Below, piece by piece: positions 34,202 through 42,210 of a DNA stretch of 64,000 nt. Position numbers and translations under genes: made by a program. Origin of the DNA: Halorussus halophilus (GTDB lineage: Archaea; Halobacteriota; Halobacteria; Halobacteriales; Haladaptataceae); contig NZ_CP044523.1 in assembly GCF_008831545.1 (NCBI RefSeq), forward strand, positions 1,550,001-1,614,000. Direction: 5' to 3'. The stretch's first letter is position 1. Each line of letters starts with the position of its first letter. The notes under the pieces were generated by a model. That model searched no databases, was not told the DNA's origin, and saw only the letters and a program-made list of their open reading frames with translations.

Positions 34202-34534
34202 TCAGACCGAGAACTCTGCTCGCGCTTCGACGTCTTCTTCTTGTACTTCCAACGTGGCGACCACCGTGTAGTCCCCGGGTCGAGCGTCGTCCCACGCGGC
34301 CGGATACACCTTCGTTTCCCCGGCGTCGAACGACTCGGTGCGGAGGGCTTGGGTGAACATCTGGCCGTCGCTGGCCCGCCAGATTTCCTCGCCGTCTTCC
34401 AGTACTGCGAAGTCGGCGCTCAGACCGCTCCGGAAGGTCAGGTTCGCTTCCGCTTCGCTCGCGTTCTCGACTTGGAGCGCGAACTCGACGTGGTCGTCGG
34501 ACTGCTGGACTGCGACGGAACTCTCGAATGCCAT
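34202..34534 (-). CDS. BsuPI-like intracellular proteinase inhibitor
   Basis: 110-residue all-beta acidic protein without signal peptide: MAFESSVAVQQSDDHVEFAL, VENASEAEANLTFRSGLSADFAVL, EEIWRASDGQMFTQALRTESFDAGETKVYPAAWDD, PGDYTVVATLEVQ. This matches the pattern of the BsuPI domain, named after the Bacillus subtilis intracellular proteinase inhibitor. It is 64 bp downstream of the first of five subtilases on the same strand, so it may be co-transcribed with it and protect the cytoplasm from unexported protease. The 34055-34201 gap is A/T-rich without a gene. Confidence 0.75.
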   Translation of the reverse strand: MAFESSVAVQQSDDHVEFALQVENASEAEANLTFRSGLSADFAVLEDGEEIWRASDGQMFTQALRTESFDAGETKVYPAAWDDARPGDYTVVATLEVQEEDVEARAEFSV

Positions 34535-34598
34535 ACCGGTACTCCGACGGCCAGACGTGAAAACTTTTCTCCGAAAGACGGAGGGGCGAAAGGAGTGG

Positions 34599-35741
34599 TT
34601 AGTCGTCGCTCGAATCCAGACCGACTGCGGCGGCCGCATCGACCAGTCCGTAGCCCTGCTCGCGGGCGGAGAGGCCGAGGTCCTCGGCGGTGTTCTGCAT
34701 GTGAGTTCGCGCGCCGGTGTTAGTGTAGCCCTCTGCGGCGAGCAGCGCGCCGACGCCAGAAACGTGCGCCGTGGCGAACGAAGTCCCCGAGAGCGTGGTG
34801 CAACCGCCATCCATGCCTATCGTCGTGATGTCTTGGCCCGGTGCGCACAGTTCGATTTCCGAACCTCTGCTGGAGAAAGACGCGAGTTCGTCGTCCTTGT
34901 TGGTCGCACTGACTGCGATGACCTCCGAGTAGGCGGCCGGATAGCCGACACAGCTATCCGAGCACGGACCGCTTCCGCCCGCGGCACCGACGAGCAGGAC
35001 GCCGTTGTCGTAGGCGTACTGGCAGGCGTCCTTGATTGCTTGCGACCCAGAGCTACCGCCGATGCTCATGTTGGCCACGTCCCAGCCTTGGTCGGCGACG
35101 TACTCGATGCCAGTGGCGATGTCGGAGTACGACCCCGAACCCCAGTCGTTCAGCACCTTCACCGAGTGGAGCGTCGCGTCGGGTGCGACGCCAGTCGTAC
35201 AGCTACAGGACTCACTCGCGCCGATGATTCCGGCGACCTGTGTGCCGTGGCCGTTGTCGTCGTCCCACGTGTAGTTGCACGAGGACCCCGAGCAGTCCAC
35301 GACGGCGTACCCAGAACCGACGTTCGGCAGACACCCGTTGTCACTGTCGATGCCGGTGTCGAGGACCGCAACGTCCGCGCCGTCGCCCGTGTAGCCGTTG
35401 ACGTTCGACACGTCGGCGTCGATTCGGTCGTAGTTCCACGGGAGCGCCAGTGCTTCCATCAGGCCGTTGGCTTCGACGTAGCGGACGTTCGGATTCCTAT
35501 CGAGTGCCGTCGCGGCCTTCTTGGGCAGACGAAGCGTCGCGGCGTCGAAGACGAACTCACGAACGACTTCGTCGGCCGCGTCGAGTGCGGCCGCACGGCC
35601 CGCGCCACCGGAGAAACCGACGTTCACTTCGACGGTGTCGTCGGGGGCGGCGGAAGCGAGACCCGTCGCACCGAGTGCGAGCAGCGAACTACCGGTCGTT
35701 TGCAGGACAGTTCGGCGTGTGATGGATTGTCGTTCTGGCAT
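34599..35741 (-). CDS. Tat-exported subtilisin-like serine protease 1 (divergent member)
   Basis: 380-residue S8 peptidase precursor. Tat signal MPERQSITRRTVLQTTGSSL, then an I9-type propeptide (about 35-105). The catalytic triad is Asp128 (VAVLDTGID), His165 (GHGTQVAG) and Ser321 (SGTSFATAHVSG). It is the most divergent of the five: the oxyanion-hole Asn (AAGN in the others) is Gly256 here (GAAGGSGPC), NHPDL/DHPDL is replaced by DNGCLP, and it holds extra cysteines (CSCTTG, CSGSSCNY, GGCTTL). There is no C-terminal domain. It neighbours the BsuPI-like inhibitor gene. Confidence 0.9.
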   Translation of the reverse strand: MPERQSITRRTVLQTTGSSLLALGATGLASAAPDDTVEVNVGFSGGAGRAAALDAADEVVREFVFDAATLRLPKKAATALDRNPNVRYVEANGLMEALALPWNYDRIDADVSNVNGYTGDGADVAVLDTGIDSDNGCLPNVGSGYAVVDCSGSSCNYTWDDDNGHGTQVAGIIGASESCSCTTGVAPDATLHSVKVLNDWGSGSYSDIATGIEYVADQGWDVANMSIGGSSGSQAIKDACQYAYDNGVLLVGAAGGSGPCSDSCVGYPAAYSEVIAVSATNKDDELASFSSRGSEIELCAPGQDITTIGMDGGCTTLSGTSFATAHVSGVGALLAAEGYTNTGARTHMQNTAEDLGLSAREQGYGLVDAAAAVGLDSSDD

Positions 35742-35761
35742 CAATATTCGACACACGCCCA

Positions 35762-35772
35762 AATAACTAAAA
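35762..35772 (-). promoter_or_regulatory. TATA box of subtilase 1
   Basis: Minus strand CTTTTAGTTAT, centred about 26 nt before the ATG, in an A/T-rich spacer. Confidence 0.5.
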
Positions 35773-35889
35773 GTTAACTATTGATACTATGGAATTTAAT
35801 TGGTTCCGCCGTCGGTAGGTTCTGTGAAAGAAGGTAGGAGTCGCGTTCAGGGGCGGTCGTGGATGACAGACTGGCCCCGCAGATACCCC

Positions 35890-37035
35890 TCACGTACTGT
35901 TGCTCGAATCGAGGCCGAGCGCCGCGGCGGCGTCGAGCAGTCCGGAACCGGACTCGTTCGCACCAAGTCCGATGTCCTCGGCCGTGTTCTTCAGCCGACT
36001 CCGCGCTTCAGTGTTGGTGTATCCGTCGGCCATTAGTTGGCCACCAGCGCCGGAGACGTGCGGGCACGCCATCGAGGTGCCCGAGAGCGTGTCGTACGTC
36101 CCGGCGAGGTACGTCGAGTAGATGTTCGACCCGGGCGCGGCGAGTTCGACCTGTGGCCCCTGCGAAGAGAAACTCGACAGTTCATCGTTCTGGTTCGTCG
36201 AACTCACGGCGACGCACTCGTCGTACGCCGCGGGATATCCGACACAGTCCGTACACGGTCCGTCGTTGCCCGCCGCGGCGACGAGTAGGACGCCCTGTCC
36301 GTAAGCGTACTCGCAGGCGTCTTTCAGCGTCTGGGAGGCACCGCCGCCGAGGCTGAGGCTCCCGACGTCCCAGCCCTGGTCGCCGACGTATTCGATGCCG
36401 GCGGCGACGTCCGAGGTAGTGCCGGACCCCGACGCGGTCAGGACCTTCACGGCGTGGAGCGTCGCTTCCGTCGAGACGCCGACGACGCCCTGGCTGTTGT
36501 CGATGGCGTCGGCGATGCCGGCGCAGTGGGTACCGTGACCGTTGTCGTCTTCCCAGTTGGAAGACTCGATGCCGCCCGTGAACGCGCGGCCCTTCCCGAT
36601 GTTGGCCTCCAGGTCCGGGTGGTTGCTGTCGATACCGGTGTCGATGATGGCGACGTCGGCACCAGCACCCGTCTCGCCGTTGCTGTGAGCGACTTCCGAA
36701 TCGACGCGGTCCTGTCCCCACGGGAGCGTCTGGGCAAGTGCCTCGACGGTTTCGTTCGCTTCGACGTACCGGACATTGGGGTTGTTTTCGAGCCCTGCGA
36801 CCGCTTTCTTCGCCGCGCGGAGCGTGACGACGTCGATAGAGCCGAACTCGCGGACGACGTGGTCGGCCGCGTCGAAGGCGGCCTGTCGGCCACGCTCGGC
36901 GGAAAAGCCGACGTTCACCTCGACGGTCTGGTCGTCTGCGGCCGCTCCGAGCGGACTCACAGCTGTCGTCGCAAGCGATGCACCGGCGACTTTCAGAACG
37001 GAACGACGCGAGATGCCATCGGGTTGGTGTACCAT
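35890..37035 (-). CDS. Tat-exported subtilisin-like serine protease 2
   Basis: 381-residue S8 peptidase precursor with Tat signal MVHQPDGISRRSVLKVAGAS and an I9-type propeptide (VNVGFSAERGRQAAFDAADH to NPNVRYVEANE). The triad is Asp132 (AIIDTGIDSNHPDL), His167 (GHGTHCAGI) and Ser321 (SGTSMACPHVSG), with oxyanion Asn in AAGNDGPC. It has the shortest loop between Asp and His and lacks the CNY(A/S/T)W insert found in the other four, but keeps the GPCTDCVGYPAAY motif. It has no C-terminal domain, unlike halolysins. It has its own TATA box. Confidence 0.93.
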   Translation of the reverse strand: MVHQPDGISRRSVLKVAGASLATTAVSPLGAAADDQTVEVNVGFSAERGRQAAFDAADHVVREFGSIDVVTLRAAKKAVAGLENNPNVRYVEANETVEALAQTLPWGQDRVDSEVAHSNGETGAGADVAIIDTGIDSNHPDLEANIGKGRAFTGGIESSNWEDDNGHGTHCAGIADAIDNSQGVVGVSTEATLHAVKVLTASGSGTTSDVAAGIEYVGDQGWDVGSLSLGGGASQTLKDACEYAYGQGVLLVAAAGNDGPCTDCVGYPAAYDECVAVSSTNQNDELSSFSSQGPQVELAAPGSNIYSTYLAGTYDTLSGTSMACPHVSGAGGQLMADGYTNTEARSRLKNTAEDIGLGANESGSGLLDAAAALGLDSSNST

Positions 37036-37060
37036 AGCAAGCTACCAGTCGCACGCCACC

Positions 37061-37068
37061 TTTATATT
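37061..37068 (-). promoter_or_regulatory. TATA box of subtilase 2
   Basis: Minus strand AATATAAA, 26-33 nt before the ATG; leaderless transcript expected. The spacer 37069-37238 holds no gene. Confidence 0.65.
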
Positions 37069-37238
37069 CTTTCTTTGCACATTTGATAAAAATTCACTGG
37101 AGAAAACATTCTCCGAGTATAAGTTCAGAATTTTCTGCTATCACGGGTTCGATTCTCGGGAGTTCGGGCGAAAAGGGGATGACGCGGCTTCGGGGTCTTC
37201 GAAGACGACGACTCCCAGCGCGGGAGTCGAGGTCGGTT

Positions 37239-38432
37239 CTACGTGCTGTCGCTCGAGTCGAGACCGAGTGCGGCCGCTGCGTCGAGGAGTCCAGCACCGG
37301 ACTCGTTCGAACCCAGACCGATGTCTTCGGCCGTACTCGCCAACTGGTTGCGGGCTTCCGTGTTGGTGTACCCGTTGGCCATCAGTAGCCCGGCGACACC
37401 TGCGACGTGCGGGGTCGCCATCGAGGTGCCCGAGAAGGTGTCGTAGGTACCGTTCGCGACCGAGGAGTAGATGTCCGTCCCGGGCGCGGCGATGTCCACT
37501 TCCGGTCCCTGCGAGGAGAAACTCGACAGGCCGTCGCTGGAGTTCGTCGAAGAGACCGCCATGACTTCGGGGTAGGCCGCCGGGTAGCCGACACAGTCCG
37601 TACACGGCCCGGAGTTGCCAGCCGCACCGACGAGGAAGACGCCGTTGTTGACGGCGTACTGGCAGGCGTCTCGGAGCGCCGAGGAGCCCGAGGACGCACC
37701 GAGGGACATCGAGCCAACGTCCCAGCCCTGGTCGGCGACGTACTCGACACCGGCCGTGATGTCGGAGAACGACCCGCTGCCACACTTGTCGAGGACTTTC
37801 ACGGCGTGGAGCGTCGCGTCCGTCGAAGCACCGACGACGCCCTGACTGTTATCTACTGCGTCGGCGATACCGGCACAGTGGGTGCCGTGGTCGTTGTCGT
37901 CGGTCCAACTGTAGTTACACGTGTTGTTCGCAGGCTTCGCACCGTAGCGACAGCCACCCTTCGTGGAACAGGCGACGAACGACTTGCCGGAGCCGATGTT
38001 TGCGCTGAGGTCGGGGTGGTCGTCGTCGATACCCGTGTCGATGATGGCGATGTCGGCACCTGCACCTGTCTCGCCGTTCGCGTGTGCGACTTCCGAGTCG
38101 ATTCGGTCCTGTCCCCAGTCGAGAGTCTGAGCGAGCGCGTGCATCTGCCCGTTCTCCTCGACGTAGCGGATGTTCGGATTTTTGTCGAGCGCCGTGACGG
38201 CCTGCTTCGCCGCCCGAAGTGTGACGATGTTCAGCGAGTCGAAGTCACGGACGACGTGGTCGGCCGCGTCGAGCGCGAGCGAACGACCGCGCTCGGAGGA
38301 GAACCCGATGTTGACTTCGACCGTGTCACCGGGCTTGGCGGCCGCGAGACCACTGCCAGCGGCAGTTGCCACAGAGGCACCGGCCAGTTTCAGAATGTTA
38401 CGTCGAGAGACACCATTGTCATTACCCAACAT
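37239..38432 (-). CDS. Tat-exported subtilisin-like serine protease 3
   Basis: 397-residue S8 peptidase precursor. Tat signal MLGNDNGVSRRNILKLAGAS; propeptide about 36-105. Triad Asp132, His182 and Ser337 (SGTSMATPHVAG), oxyanion Asn274. Between Asp and His it carries a 13-15-residue Cys-rich insert, CSTKGGCRYGAKPANNTCNY, the longest but one of the array. The mature enzyme ends soon after DIGLGSNESGAGLLDAAAAL, so it is a minimal catalytic domain. Start at ATG complement 38430-38432, preferred to a Met 8 codons earlier because of the TATA spacing and paralogue alignment. Confidence 0.93.
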   Translation of the reverse strand: MLGNDNGVSRRNILKLAGASVATAAGSGLAAAKPGDTVEVNIGFSSERGRSLALDAADHVVRDFDSLNIVTLRAAKQAVTALDKNPNIRYVEENGQMHALAQTLDWGQDRIDSEVAHANGETGAGADIAIIDTGIDDDHPDLSANIGSGKSFVACSTKGGCRYGAKPANNTCNYSWTDDNDHGTHCAGIADAVDNSQGVVGASTDATLHAVKVLDKCGSGSFSDITAGVEYVADQGWDVGSMSLGASSGSSALRDACQYAVNNGVFLVGAAGNSGPCTDCVGYPAAYPEVMAVSSTNSSDGLSSFSSQGPEVDIAAPGTDIYSSVANGTYDTFSGTSMATPHVAGVAGLLMANGYTNTEARNQLASTAEDIGLGSNESGAGLLDAAAALGLDSSDST

Positions 38433-38455
38433 GCGTCTTGACGTTCCATGGCACA

Positions 38456-38465
38456 CCTATAATAC
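38456..38465 (-). promoter_or_regulatory. TATA box of subtilase 3
   Basis: Minus strand GTATTATAGG, about 24-33 nt before the ATG. The rest of the spacer up to 38671 is A/T-rich, with one imperfect inverted repeat near 38587-38655 that could be a 3' end of the subtilase 4 transcript. Confidence 0.6.
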
Positions 38466-38671
38466 TTTCTGAAACGGTATTAAAATATCAGAGATAATTA
38501 CTTCTATGCCTGATTCTTTTAGTAAAAGTAACTAAAAATAGTTTCGGAATGGGGGTTCAGCGCGACAAAATAACTGAATCTATGCACATCCTGCCGCTCG
38601 CCCGAAATCCTCGCTTCGCGTCGTTAGGTTGCGAGACCCGAATTGAGCGGGGGATGTAGACCAGGAGGAGC

Positions 38672-39826
38672 TTACGTGCTGTCGCTTGAGTCGAAACCGA
38701 GCGCGGCCGCAGTGTCGAGCAGTCCAGCACCAGACTCGTTGCTCGCCAGACCGATGTTTTCGGCCGTGGACTTGATCGTGCTACGGGTCTGGGAGTTGCT
38801 GCTGCCGTTGGCCATCAACTGACCACCAGTTCCGGCGACGTGCGGAGTCGCCATCGAGGTACCCGAGAAGGTGTCGTAGCCGCCGATGACCGTCGAGTAG
38901 ATGTCCGTCCCGGGTGCGGCGATTTCGACTTCCGGACCGGTCGAGGAGAAACTCGACAGGCCGTCGCTGGAGTTCGTCGAGGAGACCGCCATGAACTCGT
39001 CGTATGCGGCCGGATAGCCGACACAGTCTGTACACGGGCCGGAGTTGCCCGCCGCGGCGACGAGGAACACGCCGTTGTTCTGTGCGTAGACGCCAGCGTC
39101 CTTGACGGCCTGACTACCACTGCTGGCTCCGAGGCTGAGAGAACCGACGTCCCAGCCTTGGTCGGCGACGTACTCGATACCTGCGGCAACGTCCGAGAAC
39201 GACCCGCTCCCTCTGTTGTCCAGCACCTTCACTGCGTGGAGCGTCGCGTCCGTCGAGACGCCGACGACGCCCTGACTGTTGTCCACGGCGTCGGCGATAC
39301 CGGCACAGTGGGTGCCGTGGTCGTTGTCGTCCGTCCACGCGTAGTTGCAGCTACCGCCGCGACAACTGACGAACGCTTCGCCTGCACCGACGTTCGCTTG
39401 CAGGTCCGGATGGTCGTCGTCGATACCCGTGTCGATGATAGCGATGTCGGCACCACTGCCAGTTTCGCCGTTGGCGTGTGCGACCTCCGCGTCCACGCGG
39501 TCGATGCCCCACGGCAGGGTCTGTGCGAGCGCGTGCATCTGCCCGTTCTCCTCGACGTAGCGGACGTTCGGGTTCTTGTCGAGCGCCGTGACGGCCTGCT
39601 TCGCCGCCCGAAGTGTGACGATGTCCAGCGAGTCGAAGTTCCGAACGACTTCGTCGGCCGCGTCGAGCGCGAGCGAACGACCGCGCTCGGATTTGACACC
39701 GACGTTTACCTCTACTGTGTCGTCTGGCTTCGCCGCCGCGAGTCCAGTTACACTGAGCGTCGCCGCAGACGCACCGGCCATTTGCAGCACCTTTCGCCGC
39801 GAAACACCATTGTCGTTGCGTGGCAT
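38672..39826 (-). CDS. Tat-exported subtilisin-like serine protease 4
   Basis: 384-residue S8 peptidase precursor, Tat signal MPRNDNGVSRRKVLQMAGAS. Triad Asp132, His170 and Ser324, with oxyanion Asn in AAGNSGPC. The Cys-rich insert before the catalytic His is short (SCRGGSCNYAW). The propeptide and body are very close to subtilase 3 (identical stretches such as LRAAKQAVTALDKNPN and VEENGQMHALAQTL), so the two are probably recent duplicates. It lacks one Cys that the others have in the helix after SLGASSGS (DAGVYAQN instead of DACQYA). Confidence 0.93.
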   Translation of the reverse strand: MPRNDNGVSRRKVLQMAGASAATLSVTGLAAAKPDDTVEVNVGVKSERGRSLALDAADEVVRNFDSLDIVTLRAAKQAVTALDKNPNVRYVEENGQMHALAQTLPWGIDRVDAEVAHANGETGSGADIAIIDTGIDDDHPDLQANVGAGEAFVSCRGGSCNYAWTDDNDHGTHCAGIADAVDNSQGVVGVSTDATLHAVKVLDNRGSGSFSDVAAGIEYVADQGWDVGSLSLGASSGSQAVKDAGVYAQNNGVFLVAAAGNSGPCTDCVGYPAAYDEFMAVSSTNSSDGLSSFSSTGPEVEIAAPGTDIYSTVIGGYDTFSGTSMATPHVAGTGGQLMANGSSNSQTRSTIKSTAENIGLASNESGAGLLDTAAALGFDSSDST

Positions 39827-39852
39827 GCGATAGAATAATTCACTATGTATCG

Positions 39853-39862
39853 CTATTAAAAA
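39853..39862 (-). promoter_or_regulatory. TATA box of subtilase 4
   Basis: Minus strand ATTTTTAATA, 27-36 nt before the ATG. The remaining spacer to 40104 is A/T-rich near the promoter and otherwise featureless. Confidence 0.65.
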
Positions 39863-40104
39863 TTTCTTCTAGAACAATTCATTAATTAAACTACTGCAAC
39901 TATCGTAGTTACTTTTCAGCCCGATTTAATCGTGTTCCGCTCCTCGGTATTCGCCGCAGTACGCGTCGAAACTAGTCACACGATGCGCGAACCTCTCGAC
40001 GGCACGCCCACGAACTGAGCATGACCGAGACAACTTGACCGAAACAGTGTGACCGAAACAACGCGATGAACGAGAAAAGACCGCCGTAACGGGGGTCAAT
40101 CAGG

Positions 40105-41295
40105 TTAGTTGTCCGACGAGTCGTGGCCGAGCGCCGCTGCAACGTCGAGCAGACCCGACCCAGAGACGTTGTCCGAGAGACCGATGTCTTCGGCCGTACT
40201 CTTGAGCGTGCTGCGAGCGTCGCCGTTCGTCGCACCGTTCGACATTAGTTGGCCACCAGCGCCGGAGACGTGGGGGCACGCCATCGAGGTGCCCGAGAAC
40301 GTGTCGTAGCCACCAGGCACCGTCGAGTAGATGTCCGAACCAGGTGCGGCGATGTCCACTTCTGGACCCTGCGAGGAGAAACTCGACTGCCCGTCGCTGT
40401 CGTTGGTGGACGCGACAGCCATGACTTCGGGGTAGGCCGCCGGGTAGCCGACACAGTCCGTACATTGACCGCTGTTGCCCGCAGCGGCGACGAGCAGGAC
40501 GCCGTTGTCCTGTGCGTACTGACACGCGTCTCGGAGTGCCGAGGAGCCAGAGGAGCCACCGAGGCTCATCGAAGCCACGTCCCAGCCTTGGTCAGCGACG
40601 TACTCGATACCGGCCGCGATGTCCGAGAACGAACCGCTACCACCACAGTCCAGCACCTTCACGGCGTGGAGCGTCGCGTCGGATGCGACACCGACTACGC
40701 CCTGCGAGTTGTCGTCACCAGCCGCGATACCGGCACAGTGGGTGCCGTGGTCGTTGTCGTCGGACCACGCGTAGTTACAGGCGTTGCCGTTGCCTTGGTA
40801 CGAACAGTCGCCGAAGTAGCCACCGGAGCCACACTCGGCGAACGCCCTACCCGCTCCGAGGTTGGCCTGGAGGTCAGGGTGGTCGTCGTCGATACCCGTA
40901 TCGATGATAGCGATATCGGCCCCGCTACCGACTTCGCCGTTCGCGTTCGTAATGTCTGCGTCCACGCGGTCGATACCCCACGGCAGGTCCTGTGCGAGCG
41001 CGTGCATCGTGCCGTTCTCTTCGACGTAGCGGATGTTCGGGTTCCGCTCCAGTGCCGTCGCCGCCTTCTCCGGCAGGCGAAGCGTGAGCGCGTCGATAGA
41101 GTTGAAGTCGCGGACGACTTCGTTGGCTTGGCTCTTGGCCATCGAGCGGCCACGCGCAGAGTTGAAACCGACGTTCACTTCGACCGTGTCTCCGGGCTTC
41201 GCGGCCGCGAGACCACTGCCAGCGGCAGTTGCGACGGAGGCACCGGCCACTTTCAGTACGTTACGTCGGGAAATACCATTGTCGTTTTCTCGCAT
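40105..41295 (-). CDS. Tat-exported subtilisin-like serine protease 5
   Basis: 396-residue S8 peptidase precursor, Tat signal MRENDNGISRRNVLKVAGAS. Triad Asp132, His183 and Ser337 (SGTSMACPHVSG). Its Cys-rich insert before the catalytic His is the longest (ECGSGGYFGDCSYQGNGNAC then NYAW). The propeptide differs from members 3 and 4 (SMAKSQANEVVRDFNSIDAL, LPEKAATALERNPN), resembling member 1 in the LRLPxKAATAL helix. It is the upstream end of the array. Like the others it has no C-terminal extension; activation is expected by autocatalytic removal of the propeptide outside the cell. Confidence 0.93.
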   Translation of the reverse strand: MRENDNGISRRNVLKVAGASVATAAGSGLAAAKPGDTVEVNVGFNSARGRSMAKSQANEVVRDFNSIDALTLRLPEKAATALERNPNIRYVEENGTMHALAQDLPWGIDRVDADITNANGEVGSGADIAIIDTGIDDDHPDLQANLGAGRAFAECGSGGYFGDCSYQGNGNACNYAWSDDNDHGTHCAGIAAGDDNSQGVVGVASDATLHAVKVLDCGGSGSFSDIAAGIEYVADQGWDVASMSLGGSSGSSALRDACQYAQDNGVLLVAAAGNSGQCTDCVGYPAAYPEVMAVASTNDSDGQSSFSSQGPEVDIAAPGSDIYSTVPGGYDTFSGTSMACPHVSGAGGQLMSNGATNGDARSTLKSTAEDIGLSDNVSGSGLLDVAAALGHDSSDN

Positions 41296-41321
41296 TGCAT
41301 TTGTAACTATCTAGCATGGAT

Positions 41322-41331
41322 GTTAAATTTT
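41322..41331 (-). promoter_or_regulatory. TATA box of subtilase 5
   Basis: Minus strand TAAAATTTAA, 27-36 nt before the ATG, in A/T-rich DNA that also serves the divergent DUF2797 gene. Confidence 0.6.
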
Positions 41332-41451
41332 ATCCACCCGGAAATTCATGTATGTTACTCTCTTGAAACATAATTACATTAAAAATTCTGTGAAAATAAC
41401 TCGGCGGTCCCGAACGGTACGCCTATTATCGGGAAGTCCGTAGCCGCCGCC

Positions 41452-42210
41452 GTGCAAGTCGTCGGCTACGAAACGGGTGCAGGGAGTGAGGACCCACCAG
41501 CGCTGTTGCTATCCGACGGCGAAACGGTTCGAGTCGAACCACTCGAACGCGGTACCGACCTCGCCTACTCGCTGGGCGAGCGCCGCTGTGCGGGCGTCCT
41601 CGACGGCACGGACCACCGAAACTGTCCGCGTCCGAACGCCCCGTACTGCGACGTTCACACCCACACGTGGGTCTGCGCTCGCTGTACGGGCACCTGCCTG
41701 AAAGACGAGATGGACTGCTTCGAGGACCACGCCATCTACCTCGCGGCGTTCGCCCCCGCCACGTTCAAAGTCGGCGTCACCAAGGAGTGGCGACTCGACA
41801 CTCGACTCCGCGAGCAGGGAGCCGACCGAGCGGCCCATCTTCGGACGGTCGAAGACGGCCGCATCGCCCGCCGAATCGAGGCCGAGATAGCCAAGGAGTT
41901 CACCGACCGGGTGCGCGTCCCCCAGAAGATGGACGGCCTCCACCGAGCGGTGAACACCGAGCAATGGGAAGAGGCCCTCGCCGAGTTCGAACCACTGGAC
42001 ACCTTCGACTTCGACTACGGCTTCGAACTCGACTCGCGGCCGGTCGTGGAGACGGTTTCGACCGGCGAGGTACTGGGGACGAAAGGCCGGGTGTTGGTCC
42101 TGAGTCGAGGCGGCACGAACTACGCGGTGGACATGCGCGATTTGGTGGGCTACGAACTTCGGGAGGAGGAGAGCGAGCGGGAGTTGCAATCTAGTTTGGG
42201 TGCTTTCTAG
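41452..42210 (+). CDS. DUF2797 family protein
   Basis: 252-residue protein. Zinc-binding cysteines cluster in the first third (ERRCAGVLDGTDHRNCPRPNAPYCDVHTHTWVCARCTGTCLKDEMDC). A GIY-YIG-nuclease-like strand-helix unit follows (HAIYLAAFAPATFKVGVTKEWRLDTRLREQGAD), as in DUF2797 proteins. A nucleic-acid-related role is plausible; the activity is unknown. The only sensible start is GTG 41452, directly before VQVVGYETG (read as Met). It is divergent from the subtilase array and followed by intergenic element B. Confidence 0.85.
   Translation: MQVVGYETGAGSEDPPALLLSDGETVRVEPLERGTDLAYSLGERRCAGVLDGTDHRNCPRPNAPYCDVHTHTWVCARCTGTCLKDEMDCFEDHAIYLAAFAPATFKVGVTKEWRLDTRLREQGADRAAHLRTVEDGRIARRIEAEIAKEFTDRVRVPQKMDGLHRAVNTEQWEEALAEFEPLDTFDFDYGFELDSRPVVETVSTGEVLGTKGRVLVLSRGGTNYAVDMRDLVGYELREEESERELQSSLGAF

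Follow-up and report, generated by a model that had tools for sequence, protein, structure and literature searches.

Subtilases and a BsuPI gene at one locus

We examined a 64,000-nucleotide stretch of the Halorussus halophilus genome (contig NZ_CP044523.1, positions 1,550,001 to 1,614,000 of the forward strand; hereafter 'the window'), in which an array of genes for subtilisin-like proteases of family S8 (S8_1 to S8_5, counted from the downstream end) stands next to a gene for a protein of the BsuPI/IPI family. The five complete open reading frames (ORFs) matching Peptidase_S8 (E 8e-47 to 5e-57 each) lie head to tail on the minus strand and together span positions 34599-41295; their products share 59-82% pairwise identity. 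Each carries a twin-arginine motif (RRxVL or RRNIL) near its N-terminus and none has a lipobox, while matches to the TAT profile were at threshold or below it. The catalytic domain forms the C-terminal end of all five proteins, and the C-terminal extension of classical halolysins is absent. A first-pass annotation, made from the sequence alone, had described five paralogous S8 genes in tandem, each with a twin-arginine translocation (Tat) signal and lacking the classical C-terminal domain, together with a leaderless BsuPI-like gene at the downstream end, and on all of these points our analysis agrees with it.

Two of its other statements stood only in part. The propeptides had been called I9-type; a prodomain is indeed present, but it lies closest to the Pfam Fervidolysin_NPro-like family (sub-threshold in most of the five proteins), and the I9 profile gave a single, sub-threshold match among them. 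Each S8 gene had also been assigned its own TATA box, and AT-rich TATA-like boxes were found ~30-36 nt ahead of most of the S8 starts; within the 64-nt gap that precedes the BsuPI gene (58% GC), however, no such box was seen. The BsuPI gene is therefore probably carried on the transcript of the nearest protease gene, S8_1. The same gap contains a short inverted repeat, CTCCGTCTTTCGGAG before AAAAGTTTT, which could be a weak terminator or a processing site. AGTTACTTTTACT / AGTAACT-like sequences recur ahead of several S8 genes (positions 35742-41400), perhaps as the site of a shared regulator. Sub-threshold NCBIfam matches, among them mycosin and IteS, were disregarded.

Table 1. Positions of the genes and sites discussed, in the window or, where a locus code (L) is given, in the comparison set.
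Feature	Position	Strand	Basis or remark
BsuPI/IPI-family protein (candidate cytoplasmic inhibitor), 110 aa	34202-34534	-	PF12690; no signal peptide
Codons of loop QMFTQAL, residues 58-64; counterpart of the IPI segment placed in the subtilisin cleft by docking	34343-34363	-	alignment to 3ISY
Spacer between S8_1 and BsuPI, 64 nt	34535-34598	-	no TATA-like box
S8_1, Tat-signal subtilase; Asp/His/Ser kept, Asn155->Gly (residue 256), Pro225->Ala (residue 325)	34599-35741	-	
Codon of Ala325 (Pro225 position), S8_1	34767-34769	-	alignment to subtilisin
Codon of Gly256 (oxyanion-hole Asn position), S8_1	34974-34976	-	alignment to subtilisin
S8_2, canonical Tat-signal subtilase, 381 aa	35890-37035	-	PF00082 E 9e-54; D-H-N-S intact
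S8_3, canonical Tat-signal subtilase, 397 aa	37239-38432	-	PF00082 E 3e-53; D-H-N-S intact
S8_4, canonical Tat-signal subtilase, 384 aa	38672-39826	-	PF00082 E 5e-51; D-H-N-S intact
S8_5, canonical Tat-signal subtilase, 396 aa	40105-41295	-	PF00082 E 5e-57; D-H-N-S intact
DUF2797 gene, divergent; conserved flank marking the ancestral locus, not a proposed working part	41452-42210	+	PF10977 E 4e-22
Lone prodomain genes	L061:3713-3946, L062:13611-13841, L201:7215-7523, L202:2551-2796, L203, L204:5878-6111, L205:4822-5055, L206:6046-6285, L207:2372-2611		DUF2797 end of array

The BsuPI protein and its association with halolysin-like proteases

The window BsuPI protein (isoelectric point 4.05) matches PF12690 over profile positions 2-100 of 101 (E 7e-28; 96.9 bits, against a cut-off of 22.9) and is related by sequence to the Bacillus subtilis inhibitor IPI (PDB 3ISY; E 5e-8). 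The structure of IPI was also the top Foldseek match (template modelling scores 0.90/0.85) of an AlphaFold2 model of the window protein (predicted local distance difference test 86.8), and on this model the protein is predicted to have the wedge-shaped, immunoglobulin (Ig)-like fold of IPI. The segment of IPI that has been docked into the subtilisin cleft (KMFTQAF; PMC3901451), which comprises residues 62-68 as numbered in our own alignment to 3ISY, corresponds to QMFTQAL in the window protein. The core MFTQA is common to both, and the consensus of this loop across 101 haloarchaeal BsuPI sequences is G(R/Q)MF(A/T)Q. All 101 lack a hydrophobic N-terminus (the few hydrophobic candidates upstream need remote alternative starts), so these proteins should remain in the cytoplasm.

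PF12690 was found in 181 of 341 Halobacteria genomes, mostly in single copy. Inspection of ~16 kb around each of the 101 haloarchaeal BsuPI genes revealed adjacent S8 genes at 33 loci belonging to six families (f1-f5 and f7; here and below the codes f, g, L and G denote families, genera, loci and genomes of the comparison set). All of these S8 genes are on the BsuPI strand; they lie upstream of BsuPI, mostly as its immediate neighbours, at 31 of the loci, with a median gap of 64 nt, and downstream at the other 2. A rough chance expectation, based on our estimate of ~2.7 halolysin-like S8s per genome, is ~1% per locus (with the caveat that species are not independent), and the recurrence of the arrangement across haloarchaeal families argues that it is more than chance. 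Linkage in other genomes had been chosen beforehand as one of the points on which the first-pass annotation could fail, and it proved to be conserved. Every genome of the host's family (28 of 28) has exactly one BsuPI gene, which in 24 of them abuts an array of 1 to 10 S8 genes; coordinate comparison identified G024, G162, G352 and G348 as the unlinked exceptions. The largest array places ten tandem S8 genes beside a single BsuPI gene (G350; L195:529-13748).

The association extends to whole genomes. Halolysin-like S8s, defined as those matching a profile built from the five window S8s with an E-value of at most 1e-40, are present in 100 of 115 BsuPI-positive genomes and in 21 of 80 BsuPI-negative ones (Fisher 4e-18, a value inflated by shared ancestry within families). 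Stratification by family, carried out on the first 160 genomes, gave an odds ratio of 6.6 (p 5e-7). We take the association to be strong, although it has exceptions.

At 81 of the 101 loci the flanking gene is a divergent DUF2797 gene, separated from BsuPI by 0 to 5 S8 genes, and this arrangement is the ancestral frame of the locus. (Clustering of neighbouring six-frame ORFs had pointed to a 92-aa gene conserved upstream of BsuPI; this candidate looked like an antisense shadow of DUF2797, which a direct search identified as the actual conserved divergent neighbour, and was rejected.) The linkage could then reflect the site rather than the function of its genes: BsuPI might regulate intracellular proteolysis in general, or be an unrelated protein with an Ig fold, at a DUF2797-BsuPI locus that is favoured for the gain and amplification of S8 genes. 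Most f4, f8 and f9 loci, where BsuPI remains beside DUF2797 with no S8 gene, fit such an explanation, as do three BsuPI-positive genomes that have no detectable S8. We nevertheless consider it unlikely, given that the genes always share a strand, that the S8-BsuPI pair is kept at 8 loci with no DUF2797 in the surveyed stretch, that two f4 loci have the reversed order (BsuPI first, then three S8s), and that the genome-wide co-occurrence holds with unlinked S8s too.

A divergent paralogue and a lone prodomain gene

Two features of these arrays had not been mentioned in the first-pass annotation, the first being the divergent active site of the protease encoded next to BsuPI. The catalytic Asp-His-Ser residues and the oxyanion-hole Asn are complete in S8_2 to S8_5, whereas in S8_1 Gly replaces that Asn and Ala the residue equivalent to Pro225. 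Of the 24 arrays of the family, 17 (the window, L057, L059-L062 and L195-L205) contain exactly one intact gene with this pair of substitutions (N155G and P225A, in subtilisin numbering), at position 1 to 3 counted from BsuPI. Frame breaks split the copy in two genomes, G360 (L209:661-1820) and G351 (L210:653-1836), through either decay or sequencing error. In the S8 tree the variants group together, with members from both Halorussus and the sister genus (g2, 'Haladaptatus-type'), though with modest support (83) for the deepest joining branch. Their pairwise ratios of non-synonymous to synonymous substitution (dN/dS) are 0.10-0.28, as compared to 0.10-0.24 for canonical copies; values so near the canonical ones point to purifying selection rather than a decaying gene. 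For the most part, the variant copy is thus an old and maintained paralogue.

Loss of Asn155 lowers the turnover of subtilisin about a hundredfold or more. P225A, for its part, is the second mutation of the engineered enzyme subtiligase, an S221C/P225A subtilisin (PMC7921005); of the subtiligase pair Cys221 and Ala225, S8_1 has Ala225 and keeps Ser221. We tentatively raise the possibility, itself doubtful, that this paralogue, retained at one per array since before the Halorussus/Haladaptatus split, is no longer an ordinary protease and might act instead as a very slow enzyme, as a transpeptidase or ligase, or, without hydrolytic activity, as a binding partner of the inhibitor or of propeptides. 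Were that true, the island would combine enzymes, a regulator and an inhibitor instead of being a series of redundant proteases. Arrays of genus g12 (L046:5334-6689, L055, L090, L103 and L109) hold a further S8 type, which is divergent, with the oxyanion loop AAGNGR and without the usual Cys pair.

The other feature is a short ORF, found in 9 of 9 Haladaptatus-type arrays, that encodes an S8 prodomain alone, without a Tat signal or a protease domain. It is about 66-78 aa long from its likely start and sits between DUF2797 and the array. Its reading frame and the place of its stop codon are conserved (dN/dS 0.10-0.38), TTTAATAA-type promoter-like boxes stand just ahead of its GTG start in most arrays, and its Pfam match, about at the cut-off, is to subtilase prodomains (Fervidolysin_NPro-like). 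Subtilase prodomains inhibit their cognate enzymes. An inhibitor-type gene thus stands at either end of the Haladaptatus-type arrays, the lone prodomain at one and BsuPI at the other; the two are unrelated, and both are signal-less. The lone prodomain gene is absent from the Halorussus arrays examined, including that of the window.

A possible internal safeguard, and comparison with known systems

The first-pass annotation had proposed a secreted-protease system with an internal protection factor. We consider it reasonably likely that the locus is such an island of exported proteases, with cytoplasmic BsuPI as the internal safeguard; gene content, the predicted IPI fold, loop conservation, the missing signal, linkage and co-occurrence all bear in its favour, as does the second signal-less inhibitor-type gene of the sister arrays. 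The S8 enzymes, having Tat signals, would fold in the cytoplasm ahead of export and could self-activate there. BsuPI, without an export signal, would stay inside the cell and, through its wedge loop MFTQA, block the active site of those proteases that mature before or instead of export, and the single inhibitor gene at the 3' end would serve the whole array. The need for a safeguard is documented: in Haloferax volcanii, the halolysin SptA matured within the cells when a mutated Tat signal held it back, and this caused cell death, and mature SptA builds up inside Natrinema in death phase (PMC6085418). The recurrence of the pairing across haloarchaea makes it probable that BsuPI shields the cell from proteases that are already folded when they are exported; we infer from these observations that it inhibits the linked S8s, with the cytoplasm as its site of action and protection as its purpose.

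Linkage, co-occurrence and a cytoplasmic location would equally fit a protein that binds the cytoplasmic Tat proteases mainly as a folding or export chaperone, keeping the zymogen export-ready rather than inhibiting its active site, and the S8s already have an inhibitory prodomain of their own. We regard this as quite improbable, however, since the proposed active-site loop is among the most conserved parts of BsuPI and the characterised homologue, IPI, is an inhibitor of subtilisins with an inhibition constant around nM (PMC3901451). A role outside the producing cell, in which BsuPI would escape through lysis or some unrecognised route and then limit extracellular protease activity or shield surviving kin, is very unlikely, as none of the 101 haloarchaeal homologues has a signal peptide, even though halolysins contribute to death-phase lysis (PMC6085418) and to antagonism between haloarchaea (PMC12893001), and a secreted form was once considered for B. 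subtilis IPI (PMC3901451).

Several observations nevertheless weigh against BsuPI as an internal guard of these proteases, and in particular against an exclusive pairing. No S8 gene adjoins BsuPI at about two thirds of its loci, above all in f4, where the S8s lie elsewhere in the genome, and in most genomes BsuPI persists at the same locus without such a neighbour. Family f3 runs the opposite way in the stratified test and shows no positive co-occurrence. There are strong halolysin-like S8s in four BsuPI-negative genomes and, conversely, 15 of the 115 BsuPI-positive genomes lack halolysin-like S8s (12 of these have more distant S8s and 3 have none detectable), several of which keep the loop intact. 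The idea that the loop decays in any genome without halolysin-like S8s was borne out only weakly: M/L-F is kept in 87 of 99 sequences from other genomes and in 7 of 15 sequences from genomes without such enzymes (p 7e-4), but the 15 are phylogenetically clustered, and several g7 genomes of this kind keep the loop. Finally, PF12690 is the former MEROPS family I22, which MEROPS once dropped, IPI being possibly a competing substrate (PMC3901451).

The BsuPI proteins of several g7 genomes have an insertion that splits the profile match; most genomes with this feature are without halolysin-like S8s (L223-L232, g7 and g35).

All components of the island come from known families, and our literature search, whose coverage excluded most subscription papers, found no publication on S8-BsuPI linkage in archaea. 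As far as that search reached, the conserved halolysin-IPI linkage, the arrays of many proteases with one inhibitor, the lone prodomain gene and the conserved N155G/P225A paralogue all appear to be new. The island suggests an explanation, open to test, of how cells with pre-folded, Tat-exported proteases escape self-digestion, and provides a genetic setting in which to decide whether members of the disputed IPI family are true inhibitors.

The closest known counterpart is B. subtilis IPI (BsuPI, BSU11130) with the intracellular subtilisin Isp1, which has in common with the window system the fold, the family, the MFTQA core, the S8 target class and, in the annotated form, the lack of a signal. 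The known target of IPI is an intracellular enzyme, whereas the haloarchaeal BsuPI gene adjoins arrays of 1-10 protease genes whose products are Tat-exported. Subtilase inhibitors that consist of a prodomain alone (I9 type) are also known; the lone signal-less prodomain of the Haladaptatus-type arrays resembles them but sits in a BsuPI-linked array and has a Fervidolysin_NPro-like match.

The window S8s share with the halolysins SptA, R4 and Nep a Tat signal, a prodomain, the S8 catalytic domain and a haloarchaeal origin; they differ from the classical enzymes in having no C-terminal extension, in their tandem arrangement, in the one altered oxyanion hole and in the linked inhibitor gene. Extension-less halolysins have already been reported (Hou et al. 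2022, as cited in PMC12893001), and the missing extension therefore excludes only the classical type. Natrialba magadii has yielded a purified intracellular subtilisin inhibitor, NSI, for which no gene had been identified by 2012 (PMC3403918). NSI, which acts on subtilisin and is known without a sequence, is like BsuPI in being haloarchaeal and intracellular (the latter by prediction for BsuPI), and we would guess that PF12690 is a reasonable candidate family for the gene of this orphan inhibitor. S8_1, lastly, is a case of a subtilase whose changed oxyanion hole has been kept by natural selection: its clade has in common with subtiligase the change of Pro225 to Ala, and differs from it in its Ser nucleophile and in the Gly that stands for the oxyanion Asn.

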